Below the pieces are notes generated by a model that was not told the DNA's origin, made no database searches, and was given only the letters and a program-made list of their open reading frames with translations. From assembly GCA_019752925.1 (NCBI GenBank), contig JAIELP010000005.1, positions 1-64,000 on the forward strand: a DNA stretch of 64,000 nucleotides. The letters run 5' to 3'. Shown here piece by piece: positions 32,813-38,378 of the stretch. Both the position numbers and the translations under genes were made by a program. Origin of the DNA: a bacterium (GTDB taxonomy: Bacteria > Bdellovibrionota > Bdellovibrionia > Bdellovibrionales > Bdellovibrionaceae). Every line of letters begins with the position of its first letter. The first letter of the stretch is position 1.

Positions 32813-34787
32813 TTTTATATTATTTGTTCTTTTAGTTTCGCTTGTGCAATTGAGCGCAATTAAGGTTATGGCTGCAGATGTACAAGTTGAAGCCTCTGTT
32901 GACCGCAACCAAATGGGGATCGGGGATTCTTTTGTTTTAAATATAGCTGTACGCTCAGAAGAAGATTTTGAACTTTCAGATTTACAGTTACCTAAAATGC
33001 CAGGTATTGAATTAATTAACTCGATGCCGGGCGGACGTCAGTCTTCAAGCAGTATGACTATCATAAACGGTAAAACAAAATTTGTTTCGCAAACATCACA
33101 GGATTATAATTTTGTTTTGTCGCCGCAAAAAGAAGGCAGTTTTATTATTCCGGCTATCGATATTCACATTGGCGGCAATACGTATAAAACAAATCCTATT
33201 AAAATTGATGTTCAGGAAGAGTACCGCAACACAAAAGCTCAACCCAAAGGGCGTCCGCGCTTTCCGCCGGGCTATGGTGGGCAAAAAAATGATGAAGAGG
33301 ACGCCTTCGGTAGTCCACTAGGAAATATTCAGGATACAGAAGACCTTTTTGAGCAGTTATTAAAGCAACAGCAGCGTATGTTCGGCGCAGGTGGAGGCGG
33401 CGGTGGATCGCAAGGAAACCAAATTCCTTCACGTCAGTTGAATATTAACACGAACGAAGCTTTTTTTGTTTATTTAGATGTTGATAAAACCGAAGTTTAT
33501 GAAGGCGAGCAAATTACCGCAAATTGGTATATTTATACCCGCGCCAATATTGAATCTTTAGACAGAGTTAAGTTTCCTGACCTGAAAGGTTTCTGGAAGG
33601 AAATAATCGAAGAAGTTCCTGCATTACAATTTACGGAAGAAATTGTAAACGGTATGCGCTACCGCAGAGCTTTGCTTGCCAGTCATGCATTATTTCCAAT
33701 AAAAGCAGGTTCAGCAGTTATTGATGAATTTAAAGTGAAAGCCCGTGTTCGAATGCCAACACAATTTGGATGGGGTCAAGCCCATGATTTTACGAAAGCA
33801 TCCCGTCGCACAGAAATTAAAGTATTGCCACTGCCGAATGAGGGTCGTACGCAAAGCTTTTCCGGGGCTGTCGGAACTTATCATGTGACTCTTAAAACAG
33901 AGGGCAATAGTTTTCCGGCCCACCAGCCATTTTCAATTAAAGTGCGATATGAAGGAATCGGTAATGCAAAATTAATAGATTTGCCTTCAATTAATTGGCC
34001 TTCAGGGCTCGAAATTTACGATACAAAAAGTGATTCTAAATTTTTTAAAGAGGGTCAGAGCTTTAAAGAATTTGAAATTTTAGCAATTCCGCGCAAAGAA
34101 GGCGAAATGCTTATTCCAGCCTTGGATTTAACTTATTTTGACCCTCAGCAAAAAAAATACGTTTCAGCTTCAACTCAGGAATTGCGTTTGCAAATTACTG
34201 CAGGAACGCAACCTGTTGGTAGTAATCCGGCAAGCAATCTGGGAAATAAAGCCAGCACAGGAGAGGTTTTTAAACCTCAGCCTATTTTGCAATTGCCACA
34301 GGCCAGCTTCAGTTTCGTAAATTACAGATTTCCGATTTATCTGGCGGTGCTCATTTTGGGTTTGGTCGGCCTAATTTCTTATTTTTCAGTGCAATTGAAA
34401 AATCTGAAATTTGAGCCTGAGTTTTTGACAAATGTTAATAACAAAATCAATTTGATCGAAAAATACGTATCAGTAAATGACTACAGAAAAATCGGCTCTG
34501 AAGCTACGAATCTAATTTATATTTTAGTGGCCAATTTAGCCGGACAAAAAAAAGCAGATCAGGAAATGCATTTACTAATTAATGAAATTTCATCTAAAGA
34601 TCAGCAATTGTATTTGGCTCGTATTACACAACTCTTTGATTATTTCCAATTGCTGGGCTTTTCTCCTGACGAAATTATGCAGAGTGCACTCGCAAAAAAG
34701 CCTATAAAAGAACAGGCTGAACAGTTGAAAAATTTGGCTAAAGAAGTAGTTGCTAATTTAAAAAAACAAGACAAGTATAATGAATGA
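32796..34787 (+). CDS. batD: BatD-like protein
   Basis: A 663-residue Bat-operon protein with signal peptide MTKIGNFILFVLLVSLVQLS and the family opening VQVEASVDRNQMGIGDSF. Several beta-sandwich domains follow, with VEVYEGEQITANW-like repeats, a Gly-rich linker (GAGGGGGGS) and DLTYFDPQQKKYV. A transmembrane helix near residue 520 (YLAVLILGLVGLISYF) leads into a cytosolic helical tail. I start at ATG 32796, after a poor ribosome-binding site but consistent with coupling to batC. It overlaps mltD by ATGA. Confidence 0.9.
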   Translation: MTKIGNFILFVLLVSLVQLSAIKVMAADVQVEASVDRNQMGIGDSFVLNIAVRSEEDFELSDLQLPKMPGIELINSMPGGRQSSSSMTIINGKTKFVSQTSQDYNFVLSPQKEGSFIIPAIDIHIGGNTYKTNPIKIDVQEEYRNTKAQPKGRPRFPPGYGGQKNDEEDAFGSPLGNIQDTEDLFEQLLKQQQRMFGAGGGGGGSQGNQIPSRQLNINTNEAFFVYLDVDKTEVYEGEQITANWYIYTRANIESLDRVKFPDLKGFWKEIIEEVPALQFTEEIVNGMRYRRALLASHALFPIKAGSAVIDEFKVKARVRMPTQFGWGQAHDFTKASRRTEIKVLPLPNEGRTQSFSGAVGTYHVTLKTEGNSFPAHQPFSIKVRYEGIGNAKLIDLPSINWPSGLEIYDTKSDSKFFKEGQSFKEFEILAIPRKEGEMLIPALDLTYFDPQQKKYVSASTQELRLQITAGTQPVGSNPASNLGNKASTGEVFKPQPILQLPQASFSFVNYRFPIYLAVLILGLVGLISYFSVQLKNLKFEPEFLTNVNNKINLIEKYVSVNDYRKIGSEATNLIYILVANLAGQKKADQEMHLLINEISSKDQQLYLARITQLFDYFQLLGFSPDEIMQSALAKKPIKEQAEQLKNLAKEVVANLKKQDKYNE

Positions 34788-36136
34788 CTAAAACGATAAA
34801 TTTTATATTATCTATTGGTTTGCTTATTGTTTTCACAAGCTGTGCAACCACCCCAAAACCGAATAATACAGTACAGGCTGATGCAGCAGCTGGAATTGAT
34901 CATTTCCGCATTGATGAAGCTAATAATGAGCCAGCTCCGACCCCAGACCAAAGTATACAAGAGCTGGAAATCATCCCAACTGAAATCAATGAAAATGTAG
35001 ATAAATGGATACGTTATTTTCAAAACAGAGGCCGCGTTCATATGGAGCGCTATTTATTACGCTCTACACGTTATGAAGCCCTGATGAAAAAAGTTTTACG
35101 TGATAATAAACTTCCTGAAGATTTGTTTTACATCGCTTTAATTGAATCCGGTTTTAGCTCTCAGGCCTTCAGTCATGCCTCAGCTGTGGGTTACTGGCAG
35201 TTCATCAGAGGAACGGGTAAACGCTATAAATTACAAATCAACCAATTGGTGGATGAGCGCCGTGACCCGGTGTTATCAACTCAAGCAGCGGCAGAATACT
35301 TTAAAGATCTCTACGCACGATTTAATTCATGGTATCTGGCAATGGCAGCTTATAACGTCGGTGAAGGCCGTGTAGACCGTGCCATCAAAAAATATAAAAC
35401 TAAAGACTTCTGGGTTCTGGTGCGCAACAAGCGTGCATTACCATCTGAAACCGACAATTACGTTCCTAAATATATTGCGGCCAAGTTGATTGCTAAAAAT
35501 CCAGATAAATACGGATTTGAAGGCATTGACTACATGCCACCTATTGAGTTTGACCATATATCAGTTGATCAGCCTATCAATTTACGTTTGATGGCCGAAA
35601 AAATGAATATCAACTACGAAGATTTTAAAGCATTAAATCCTAAATTTAAAGGAGAGATTGCACCTCTTGAAGCCGGCAATAAGCTTGGGCTTAGAATTCC
35701 GCCGGGTAGCTATGAAGCCGCCGCTGTGGCCTATAAAGAAAGTACTGTTGATAAAGTTGAATACGTAGCAGATCAAAATGAAATGCAACTCTACAAAATC
35801 AGAAAAGGCGACACTCTTTCAACTGTAGCGAGACGCTACCGAACAACAGTGGCGTACTTACGTGATATCAATGATTTCACACGCAAAAAGAAGTTAAGAA
35901 TAGGGCAGCGCATTTTTGTTCCGGATCGCACACCTCTAAAAGAAAAGCGCCCAGAGTTAGTGGCTAAAGCCTCAAAAAAATTCCACATCGTACAAAAAGG
36001 CGATAACGTAGCCTCAATTGCGAAAAAATATAAAACGACTGTTTCTACAATCCGTAAAATTAATAAGTTGAAATCTAAATCCAGTTTGAGAATCGGCTCT
36101 CGCATTTACTTACCGGAAGATAACAAGAGATTGTAA
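34784..36136 (+). CDS. mltD: Membrane-bound lytic transglycosylase D-like lipoprotein with LysM repeats
   Basis: Cleaves peptidoglycan glycan strands. The lipobox VFTSC gives lipidated Cys20. The SLT domain spans about residues 100-215 with catalytic Glu121 in ALIESGFSSQAFSHASAVGY, and AMAAYNVGEGRVDRAI. Two LysM domains follow (residues 341-386 and 402-446: YKIRKGDTLSTVARRYRTT and HIVQKGDNVASIAKKYKTT). It sits at the end of the Bat operon, overlapping batD, which suggests a link between Bat complexes and cell-wall remodelling in this organism. Confidence 0.92.
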   Translation: MTKTINFILSIGLLIVFTSCATTPKPNNTVQADAAAGIDHFRIDEANNEPAPTPDQSIQELEIIPTEINENVDKWIRYFQNRGRVHMERYLLRSTRYEALMKKVLRDNKLPEDLFYIALIESGFSSQAFSHASAVGYWQFIRGTGKRYKLQINQLVDERRDPVLSTQAAAEYFKDLYARFNSWYLAMAAYNVGEGRVDRAIKKYKTKDFWVLVRNKRALPSETDNYVPKYIAAKLIAKNPDKYGFEGIDYMPPIEFDHISVDQPINLRLMAEKMNINYEDFKALNPKFKGEIAPLEAGNKLGLRIPPGSYEAAAVAYKESTVDKVEYVADQNEMQLYKIRKGDTLSTVARRYRTTVAYLRDINDFTRKKKLRIGQRIFVPDRTPLKEKRPELVAKASKKFHIVQKGDNVASIAKKYKTTVSTIRKINKLKSKSSLRIGSRIYLPEDNKRL

Positions 36137-36182: not shown

Positions 36183-36223
36183 AAAAAAAAACTCTAAGCT
36201 CGTCGTCCTGAAAGCCTAGAGTT
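36183..36223 (-). terminator. Intrinsic terminator of the c-di-GMP RNA
   Basis: On the minus strand AACTCTAGGCT (36223-36213) pairs with AGCTTAGAGTT (36200-36190) with one G-U, around a 12-nt loop, followed by at least seven T (36189-36183). It is oriented only for minus-strand transcription. Confidence 0.9.
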
Positions 36224-36306
36224 AAGGGGAATGAAACCAATCCATGATATAATTTTTAGAAACTTTTTTTACTTCCATTGCAGTTCTCACCGCAGGTCTT
36301 TAATTA

Positions 36307-36393
36307 CCTTTGGCAGCTGGCTAGCATGTCGTTAGACAAAGCCCCTTTAGCTTTGCGTCCCTCAGTTTCCTGAGGTTTGCCTTGAGACAAAGG
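36307..36393 (-). promoter_or_regulatory. c-di-GMP-I (GEMM-I) aptamer
   Basis: An 87-nt minus-strand domain closed by P1 CCTTTG (36393-36388) with CAAAGG (36312-36307). It contains AAGGCAAACC, P2 CCTCAG with GAAA tetraloop and CTGAGG (36375-36360), the signature GGGACGCAAAGC, and P3 GGCT/AGCC with an internal receptor-like TCTAACGACATG. Order, spacing and tetraloop match class I c-di-GMP riboswitches such as Vibrio Vc2. Confidence 0.88.
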
Positions 36394-36755
36394 AAGTACA
36401 CGGTTTGACCCGTGACTCAAAGTCCGCTAGTGCCTCCTATGATAAATATAAGATTGAACTAGAAACCTACTTCCTATGATCGTTTGTAAGATATTTTATT
36501 GGGGTTCTTCGTCACTTCGGTGATTTATCGTTGTGATTAAAAATTCTCTTCACACGTCCTCCATCTGTTGCGTGAATCTAGAATAACTCCCAGGCATGAA
36601 TAATTTCCAATTTTTTTTAATTATTATCAAAATAGTTCATTTTTTGATTCATTCTGAAAAGTAGCTATAAAATCAGCTAGTTATATCAATCATTTTGATA
36701 CAAAAAGCGGGCAAATGTGCTTGATCTTAGATGAGTATTCAGACATATTACCCGC

Positions 36756-38378
36756 ATGATTGCTTTCAATGCCGTAACTAAACAACAGGGTTCTAAAATT
36801 CTTTATTCTAACGCTTCTTTTCAGATTAATCCGGGAGAAAAAATCGGGTTAGTTGGACCAAACGGCGCGGGTAAAACCACTATTTTCCGTCTGATCATGA
36901 ATGAAGAATCTGTTGATCAAGGCACTATCAGTAAACCTGAAAAAGTGCGCATCGGATATTTCTCACAAAACATCGAAGAGATGAAGGGCCGCAGTGTAAT
37001 CGCTGAAGTTTTATCTGCAGGAAATTTAGATAATATTAAAGATGAAATCGCTCGCTTAGAAGAAAAACTTCAGGATCCTGAATTAGGCGAAGACGAAATG
37101 ATGACAGTGGTTGAGCGCTACGGCGACTTACAGGCTCAATTTGAAGCCGTAGGCGGTTACGACCTGGAATCTAAAGCTAAAGAAATCCTAGGCGGTCTTG
37201 GTTATTCAAATGAAGATATGCAAATTGATGTAGGTAAGTTCTCAGGCGGTTGGAAAATGCGTGTGAGCTTAGCTAAAATTCTTTTATTAATGCCGGATGT
37301 TTTATTAATGGATGAGCCGACGAATCACTTAGACGTTGAATCTATCATTTGGCTTGAGCAGTGGCTGCAGAACTACAAAGGTTCTCTCTTAATGACGTCC
37401 CATGACCGTGAGTTCATGAACCGCTTAGTTTCTAAAATTGTAGAAGTGGCTAATAAAACCGTTACTGTTTATGGCGGTAACTACGAATTTTACAATAAAG
37501 AAAAAGCTATTCGTCGTGAGCAATTAATTGCAGCGGCAGCCCGCCAAGAAGATATGTTAGCTAAAGAAGAAGAGTTTATTGCTCGGTTTGCTGCGCGCGC
37601 CTCACATGCGGCACAGGTGCAATCACGTGTTAAAAAATTAGAAAAAATCGACCGTATTGAAATTCCACCCGAAGATAAAGCCATGCAATTTGTGTGGGGC
37701 GAGCCACCTCGCGGCGGGGATGAAGTTGTTAAGTTTGAAGGCCTAGGTAAAATTTGGAAAATGGATGACGGCCGCGAGAAAAATGTTTTCTCGGGCGCTA
37801 GTGCCTTAGTTAAACGCTTAGACCGCGTTGCTGTTGTGGGTATCAACGGTGCCGGTAAATCGACATTATTGAAAATCATTACAGGACAAACGGATGCAAC
37901 AGCCGGCACCTGTAAAATTGGCCCTAGTATTCAATACGGATACTTCTCGCAAAACTCTTTGGATGTATTAGATCCTAAAAAAACAATTTTTCAGGAAGTC
38001 GAATCCCGTGTTCCCAATGCATCAGTGGGTTTTATTAAAAGTTTATTAGGTTCTTTCCTTTTTTCCGGTGAGGAAGTAGAAAAGAAAATTTCAGTTTTAT
38101 CCGGTGGTGAAAAATCCCGTGTGATTTTAGCATGTATTTTATCTCAGCCGGTTAATTTACTTGTTCTAGATGAGCCGACCAATCACCTAGACATTAAGTC
38201 CCGCGAAGTTCTGTTGCATGCGATCAAAACATTCCCCGGAACAGTAATGATGGTTTCCCACGACCGTTACTTCTTACGTGAAATCACAACTAAAGTTTTT
38301 GAAATCGACAAAAACCATCTGAATGTGATCGAAGGTAATTATCAGCACTATCTGGATTTTAAAGCGGCGCGGGTTTAA
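36756..38378 (+). CDS. ABC-F family ATPase
   Basis: Two ABC domains without membrane parts, 540 residues. The first has GPNGAGKTT (residues 34-42), FSGGWKMRVSLAKILL and LLMDEPTNHLD; the second GINGAGKST, LSGGEKSRVILACIL and LVLDEPTNHLD. The linker between them is charged and contains RAAHAAQVQSRVKKLEK-like helices, as in ribosome-acting ABC-F factors of the YbiT/Uup/EttA group. It likely relieves stalled ribosomes or acts in translation initiation. Which subfamily is unclear. Its stop codon interlocks with that of the convergent RND gene (TTAA at 38375-38378). Confidence 0.9.
   Translation: MIAFNAVTKQQGSKILYSNASFQINPGEKIGLVGPNGAGKTTIFRLIMNEESVDQGTISKPEKVRIGYFSQNIEEMKGRSVIAEVLSAGNLDNIKDEIARLEEKLQDPELGEDEMMTVVERYGDLQAQFEAVGGYDLESKAKEILGGLGYSNEDMQIDVGKFSGGWKMRVSLAKILLLMPDVLLMDEPTNHLDVESIIWLEQWLQNYKGSLLMTSHDREFMNRLVSKIVEVANKTVTVYGGNYEFYNKEKAIRREQLIAAAARQEDMLAKEEEFIARFAARASHAAQVQSRVKKLEKIDRIEIPPEDKAMQFVWGEPPRGGDEVVKFEGLGKIWKMDDGREKNVFSGASALVKRLDRVAVVGINGAGKSTLLKIITGQTDATAGTCKIGPSIQYGYFSQNSLDVLDPKKTIFQEVESRVPNASVGFIKSLLGSFLFSGEEVEKKISVLSGGEKSRVILACILSQPVNLLVLDEPTNHLDIKSREVLLHAIKTFPGTVMMVSHDRYFLREITTKVFEIDKNHLNVIEGNYQHYLDFKAARV

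Follow-up and report, generated by a model that had tools for sequence, protein, structure and literature searches.

A stand-alone c-di-GMP-I riboswitch RNA of the merRNA type with a conserved upstream mini-ORF in Bdellovibrionaceae

The window (the whole stretch of 64,000 nucleotides analysed here) carries on its minus strand a c-di-GMP-I (GEMM-I) aptamer that belongs to an RNA orthologous to merRNA of Bdellovibrio bacteriovorus. We propose that this is a stand-alone RNA that binds c-di-GMP and is also translated, a dual-function RNA and not a pure sponge, which would regulate no downstream gene; we give this reading a probability of about 0.6. The features on which the proposal is built are the following, in the order of transcription, with the two flanking genes at the end.

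36580..36610, minus strand: putative sigma-70-like promoter called on consensus, TTGGAA (36610..36605), 19 nt, TATTCT (36585..36580)
36183..36573, minus strand: predicted transcript of about 390 nt, by analogy with HD100 merRNA and from the promoter and terminator positions
36558..36562, minus strand: Shine-Dalgarno sequence GGAGG of ORF1, from the sequence and the ORF1 scans
36512..36553, minus strand: ORF1, GTG start, MKRIFNHNDKSPK and stop, a conserved mini-ORF upstream of the aptamer with a coding signal
36433..36438, minus strand: AGGAGG, Shine-Dalgarno-like with no start codon behind it, seen in the sequence and kept in relatives
36392..36398, minus strand: P0 5' strand UACUUCC, whose best helix is with GGAAGUA, also by RNAalifold; a competing pairing appears in the fold of the window RNA
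36309..36391, minus strand: predicted c-di-GMP-I (GEMM-I) aptamer, RF01051, 69.7 bits
36279..36294, minus strand: possible hairpin UGCGGU-GAGA-ACUGCA with a GNRA loop, just before ORF2, read from the sequence
36270..36276, minus strand: P0 3' strand GGAAGUA, overlapping the ORF2 start, from helix search, pair counts and RNAalifold
36222..36278, minus strand: ORF2 (tentative), MEVKKVSKNYIMDWFHSP and stop, running from P0 to the terminator, with a kept frame and no synonymous excess
36183..36223, minus strand: intrinsic terminator, stem 36223..36217 / 36196..36190 plus nine U, from fold and sequence
34784..36136, plus strand: mltD, best NCBIfam match murein transglycosylase D, below the curated cut-off; converges on the RNA
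36756-38378, plus strand: gene of an ABC-F family protein (NF000355, ribosomal protection-like, above cut-off), the divergent neighbour

The aptamer, its transcript and its genomic setting

A sequence-only reading of this DNA had placed a GEMM-I aptamer on the minus strand, and the covariance search agrees, with an RF01051 match at 36391..36309 (-) that scores 69.7 bits against a gathering threshold of 35 (E = 1.3e-11) and spans positions 1-87 of the 87 in the model. This aptamer is the sole Rfam match at the gathering threshold within the 64-kb window, and one RF01051 match was reported in the window's genome of 2,738,205 bases (completeness 94%). RF01051 was found in 59 of 66 family genomes, 88 of 140 order genomes, 90 of 143 class genomes (53 of the 143 being without a match) and 136 of 368 phylum genomes, always with exactly one match per positive genome; 135 of the 136 phylum genomes had theirs above the cut-off. 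In each of these searches, 14 control genomes gave no RF01051 match. Present as a single copy in 90 of 143 genomes, the c-di-GMP-I riboswitch RNA is old within the window's class.

The base that selects the ligand, which we take to be position 20 of the window and class aptamers, is G in the window; in the class, a script assigned G to 88 of the 90 loci, and the other two read G by eye. The relevant passages on GEMM-Ib riboswitches report that A at position 20 selects cGAMP and that the A20G change leads to c-di-GMP (PMC6456294). Since Bdellovibrio itself is described as making cGAMP (excerpt of PMC9140294), the identity of this base matters; with G throughout the 90 class loci, cGAMP was rejected as the ligand, and c-di-GMP is the expected one, as predicted from this base. 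The window RNA thus shares with RF01051 riboswitches the full aptamer and a c-di-GMP-type base at the ligand-selecting position, but it differs from them in that no target gene lies downstream, the P0 helix encloses the aptamer and two mini-ORFs flank it.

The RNA was also said to possess its own intrinsic terminator, and we located one at 36223..36183 (-), a stem followed by nine U that starts 85 nt past the aptamer. All seven outer pairs of AACUCUA...UAGAGUU (36223-36190 to 36217-36196) form in the minimum-energy fold. A simple terminator scan of the window did not list it, probably because the scan allows loops of 3-8 nt and the loop here is long. The extent first given to the RNA, 36183-36480, turned out too short: by analogy with HD100, the predicted transcript would begin at or near 36563-36573 and end within the T tract. 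Relative to the RNA, the putative promoter occupies the position that TTGAAA-18-TATCCT has in genome G003, which we take to be B. bacteriovorus HD100; the 19-nt spacing of the window promoter is longer than the usual 17. From the published coordinates, the 5' end of HD100 merRNA lies 234 nt before the aptamer (PMC3627812).

Between ORF1 and the aptamer, AGGAGG recurs at 56 of the 59 loci of the family and 73 of the 90 of the class, and inspection by eye showed no start codon that follows it consistently. In two genomes of another order (G140 and G142), an AGGAGG-like site is followed by an AUG that directly abuts a stop codon, also by eye.

The further claim that no minus-strand gene follows was upheld, as no credible one lies past the terminator in the window and no same-strand gene was found there for the RNA to control in cis. 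Between 33,000 and 36,183, six minus-strand ORFs of at least 50 aa occur; none exceeds 89 aa, all are antisense inside plus-strand genes (mltD and the gene preceding it) and they look like chance ORFs. Among the 90 class loci, the nearest downstream ORF with 100 aa or more runs on the opposite strand in 62 and on the same strand in 23, with none found in one locus and a contig too short in four. An mltD-like match was downstream and convergent in 50 of the 90 loci (downstream flanks covered 0.1 to 3.9 kb), 41 of these matches having at least 40% identity over at least 200 residues, and it was upstream in one more. With mostly opposite-strand or convergent neighbours, the RNA looks stand-alone throughout the class.

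Antisense action on mltD was considered and rejected, since the end of the RNA lies 46 nt past the mltD stop codon and since, in relatives, the mltD-like match can be more than 1 kb away (16 of 50) or absent from the covered flank (39 of 90).

The mini-ORFs and the enclosing helix

ORF1 has counterparts well beyond the window. It reads MRTHEHHDDELK in G003, where it spans 1,074,121-1,074,083 on the minus strand, inside the published merRNA transcript, and MKNRIHDHHDEPPK in other members of the G003 genus, while sister families have MAKRPKDWRLDPPPK, MRARPSGWVADPPPE and MKVNPMEWRRDPPPE. Using a rule on the C-terminal pattern (with G046 added and the start of G001 picked by hand), we recovered ORF1 at 61 of the 88 order-level loci, leaving 27 without a recognised one; by family, the counts were 43/59 in f1, 7/8 in f7, 11/15 in f9, 0/5 in f5 and 0/1 in f6. 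The rule applied by script alone found 60 of 88 real upstream regions, against a mean of 0.65 of 88 and a maximum of 2 after dinucleotide shuffling.

Moreover, the changes between nearest neighbours carry a coding signal. Over the last eight codons of ORF1, 72 single changes were synonymous and 31 non-synonymous, with 28.9 synonymous ones expected (p = 1.6e-18; this and the following p-values for ORF1 are approximate, as sequences recur among the pairs and some of the genomes are close relatives). The frames shifted by one and by two show a synonymous deficit (9/93 and 10/80). A retest left out the last four codons, where the selection of the set could bias the result, and still gave 39 synonymous changes of 70 against 16.5 expected (p = 7.8e-9), with p = 2.3e-10 in f1 and p = 2.6e-7 in the G003 genus (g4) alone; f7 and f9 alone gave 11/27 (p = 0.09, not significant). 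That ORF1 is conserved and under coding selection is strongly supported by these comparisons, and it is predicted to be translated. The earlier picture of a stand-alone RNA is kept, but its treatment as non-coding is not, given a conserved upstream ORF with a synonymous excess.

Consecutive prolines slow ribosomes. A DPPP(K/E)-stop ending marks ORF1 at 16 of the 88 order-level loci, in families f7 and f9, and all four Pro codons occur at each of the three positions among these 16. No such arrest motif is present in the window's MKRIFNHNDKSPK, which has one proline; G003 ORF1 has none, and the proline repeats are lost in most of the window's family. Because the G003 peptide is without proline, stalling cannot be the general role of ORF1.

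Three side observations concern the same subject. An ORF1-like ORF, MLNVFLFTRPKELSTNPPFR, was seen by eye in G140 of another order. In L068, L079 and L086 (family f5), the rule finds no ORF1, and inspection by eye shows a proline-rich ORF past the aptamer (MDITPIFRPPYPPPK... and MGFNCCLHPPYSPQ). Finally, ABC-F family proteins act on stalled ribosomes, and such a gene neighbours an RNA with a short ORF that is proline-rich in relatives, possibly by coincidence.

The arrangement recalls mgtL of Salmonella, in which a short ORF preceded by a Shine-Dalgarno sequence, with a proline-rich end (here in the sister families), also stands before a regulatory RNA structure; however, no structural gene follows the merRNA-type RNA, and ORF1 has a single proline in the window and none in G003. 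SR1/SR1P and SgrS/SgrT are likewise cases in which one small RNA acts as RNA and encodes a small protein, but the window-type RNA bears a second-messenger aptamer and its ORF is just 9-19 codons long.

The P0 helix encloses the aptamer. Its 5' strand, CCUUCC (UACUUCC in the window), directly precedes the aptamer's UUUG, and its 3' strand, GGAAGG (GGAAGUA in the window), lies 30 to 40 nt past the aptamer in most family loci and farther away in several deeper genera. Of the 53 f1 loci that fit both strands, 46 have C-G at the variable pair, 6 have A-U and one has U-A; the other 6 of the 59 fall outside the strand pattern. The P0 anchor is found in 58 of 59 family loci (all but G057); with 10 deep-genus loci left out, the remaining 48 were aligned, and RNAalifold predicted P0 in them unprompted. 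Both partners differed in 8 rows, no row disrupted the variable pair, and the 288 cells covered by the six pairs contained 3 breaks. Swapping partners between genomes gave z values of about 2.5 in f1, 2.6 outside f1 and 1.7 in f9 alone, and both in f1 and outside it the best swapped mean was slightly higher than the observed mean; the low variation of the strands keeps this signal modest. When the window RNA was folded by energy on its own, neither P0 nor an extended P1 formed; in the minimum-energy fold, the 5' strand of P0 takes an upstream GGAAGUA, 36474..36468 (-), as its partner. Over the 12 RNAs folded, P0 reached a probability of at least 0.87 in four. Judged from the aligned loci, P0 is a covarying helix enclosing the aptamer.

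The upstream GGAAGUA copy (36468-36474, minus strand) thus rivals the P0 3' strand for the same partner. Two other pairings were set aside: a helix between AGGAGG and CUUCCU, envisaged as an off state, had base-pair probability support in one (G038) of the 11 site-bearing RNAs among the 12 folded, and an anti-aptamer pairing of CCCCUU with AAGGGG is conceivable by eye, with both strands hardly varying.

P0 includes the bases adjoining the AUG of ORF2, which reads MEGTNTYKDWFHSP in G003. By rule ORF2 was found in 52 of 59 family loci, with an SP ending in 44, and it stops just before the terminator in most loci; in four loci where its frame is kept (G013, G016, G018 and G023), it continues into the terminator. 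By eye, the expected position of the ORF2 Shine-Dalgarno sequence is taken by GGAAGGA in deeper genera. The region of the possible GNRA hairpin just before ORF2 varies between genera and lies outside the RNAalifold consensus.

The frame of ORF2 was examined in the 49 of 59 family loci whose genera have the start at GGAAG. It is common to 45 of them, the other four being out of frame, and within genera 10 length changes keep the frame against 2 that do not (p = 5e-4, counting distinct lengths per genus and not events on a tree). There was no synonymous excess in ORF2 (4 synonymous and 30 non-synonymous changes, 7.3 synonymous expected). ORF2 was therefore rejected as a plainly conserved peptide: its conserved ends hardly vary at silent sites, so that constraint at the RNA level explains their conservation. 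We tentatively regard ORF2 as a translated spacer between two RNA elements, and not yet as a proven gene.

Relation to merRNA and to an RNA upstream of queE

Karunker et al. (2013, PMC3627812) place merRNA of B. bacteriovorus HD100 at 1,073,741-1,074,185 on the reverse strand, with a length of 445 nt. The RF01051 match of G003, at 1,073,868-1,073,951 (-), falls within these coordinates, which makes the window RNA an orthologue of merRNA and not merely a similar RNA. The resemblance to the attack-phase riboswitch RNA of Bdellovibrio suggested at the outset is thus confirmed as orthology, and the independence of the window RNA with it; beyond the G003 match, the RNAs have in common a single copy per genome, ORF1 and P0. 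Both the HD100 and the window RNA have one GEMM-I aptamer, stand alone and end in their own terminator.

The merRNA passages of the 2013 paper state that, in attack phase, its reads roughly equal all coding reads, that its level is about 5000-fold lower in growth phase and that c-di-GMP is bound with a KD near 1 nM (PMC3627812). They term merRNA non-coding and restricted to the Bdellovibrio lineage, with no conserved ORF downstream of the riboswitch (PMC3627812). Another paper describes merRNA as down-regulated in B. bacteriovorus stator mutants (PMC11323537). Compared with this published picture, the RNA described here has a class-wide range and bears ORF1 before the aptamer, the P0 helix and possibly an ORF2; given that ORF1 is upstream, the statement on the downstream side is not contradicted. 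The merRNA passages of the Bdellovibrio papers covered, largely open-access ones, do not mention an ORF1-like ORF, and among titles and abstract beginnings retrieved for GEMM together with leader peptides or small proteins, none deals with an ORF-bearing GEMM-I RNA. By its orthology with merRNA, the kind of RNA is already known; what this analysis adds is its range across the class, a coding ORF1, the P0 helix and, in sister classes, a link to queE.

This link appeared when loci were inspected across the phylum (127 of the 136 genomes with a match, 9 being left out). In the sister classes, that is, in the phylum outside the window's class, a queE-like gene lies downstream on the same strand in 28 of 37 loci, 136-322 nt past the aptamer in 27 of them and 1,256 nt past it in one; by eye, the gene is found beyond a hairpin. 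In the one gene examined, the best NCBIfam match of this QueE-like radical-SAM gene was TIGR04349 (1.3e-73), below the curated cut-off. It would be unusual for c-di-GMP to be tied to queuosine synthesis. The window's class may have lost a cis target, or the sister classes may have gained one.

By eye, the RNAs of L091-L125 (e.g., L096:1501-2433) consist of a single GEMM-I RNA with a hairpin terminator and, in many, an outer helix UGAAGAGG/CCUCUUCA. Moreover, L123, L124 and L125 (f27) show by eye a possible mini-ORF between aptamer and queE, ...ARPPLR-stop or ...ARPPH-stop, with its start codon unassigned.

Possible function and its alternatives

In the dual-function reading, the window RNA would be the merRNA orthologue of a Pseudobdellovibrio-like lineage, an independent transcript that binds c-di-GMP through its GEMM-I aptamer. 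If it were as abundant in attack phase as its HD100 counterpart, there would be enough aptamers to bind an appreciable part of the cell's c-di-GMP. Ribosomes on ORF1 may shield the 5' portion of the RNA or pace it, which would link the level of the RNA to translation. Binding of c-di-GMP would stabilise P1 and the adjoining P0 and thereby hide the start region of ORF2 or, in deeper genera, its Shine-Dalgarno site; with a ligand-closed P0 over the ORF2 start, the RNA would also be a tiny translational riboswitch.

One alternative shifts the weight to the ribosome, with translation of ORF1, ORF2 or both as the main output, c-di-GMP as the input acting via P0, and micropeptides or parked ribosomes acting in trans. 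We consider it possible, though not the reading we favour. The strong coding signal of ORF1, the proline-rich ends whose three positions draw on all four codons, the contact between P0 and the ORF2 start and the in-frame length changes of ORF2 all speak for it, but most of the window's family has lost the proline repeats, ORF1 went unrecognised in 27 of 88 loci and ORF2 is without synonymous excess.

Somewhat more doubtful is a pure c-di-GMP reservoir, in which an abundant non-coding RNA would soak up c-di-GMP in attack phase and release it at prey entry. The 2013 paper offers storage of c-di-GMP by merRNA as a speculation (PMC3627812), which the sequence-only reading took up as a possible buffer, and this published proposal leans on the absence of a conserved downstream ORF. 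The attack-phase abundance with its steep fall in growth phase and the nanomolar affinity (both PMC3627812), as well as the stand-alone position of the RNA, fit a reservoir well; yet a sponge would need neither a coding ORF upstream nor a kept frame downstream, and a single copy with conserved flanks may point to more than aptamer dosage. Both of these alternatives overlap with the dual-function reading, so that the odds do not sum to one.

An ordinary cis riboswitch, be it with an overlooked target gene or with read-through into a downstream one, is improbable. The queE-like genes of the sister classes and the 23 class loci with a same-strand first ORF lend this some plausibility, but the window has a terminator followed by a convergent mltD, and none of the 90 class loci had a queE match in the flanks covered. 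A lost cis target was rejected on the same result, queE being the only gene sought as a shared neighbour among the 23 same-strand cases. Hardly credible is a riboswitch decaying after the loss of its gene, conceivable relative to the queE-linked relatives and given the 53 class genomes without a match, but at odds with the full aptamer model (1-87) covered by every match listed for the class, with the selection on P0 and, where present, ORF1, and with the massive transcription of the HD100 copy (PMC3627812).

The boldest reading, which we consider unlikely as it stands, is that merRNA is a very abundant, c-di-GMP-gated translated RNA, with ribosomes held on ORF1 (whose end is polyproline in sister families) and P0 opening or closing a second micro-ORF. 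If true, c-di-GMP would set ribosome occupancy or micropeptide output in non-growing attack-phase cells, and merRNA would connect c-di-GMP with the way translation halts and restarts on entry into prey. merRNA is described among the most abundant RNAs of attack-phase Bdellovibrio (PMC3627812). ORF1, P0 and the class-wide conservation provide testable handles on how the predator uses c-di-GMP to change life phases, and they put the merRNA-type RNA among the rare candidates for a riboswitch RNA whose action needs no target gene.
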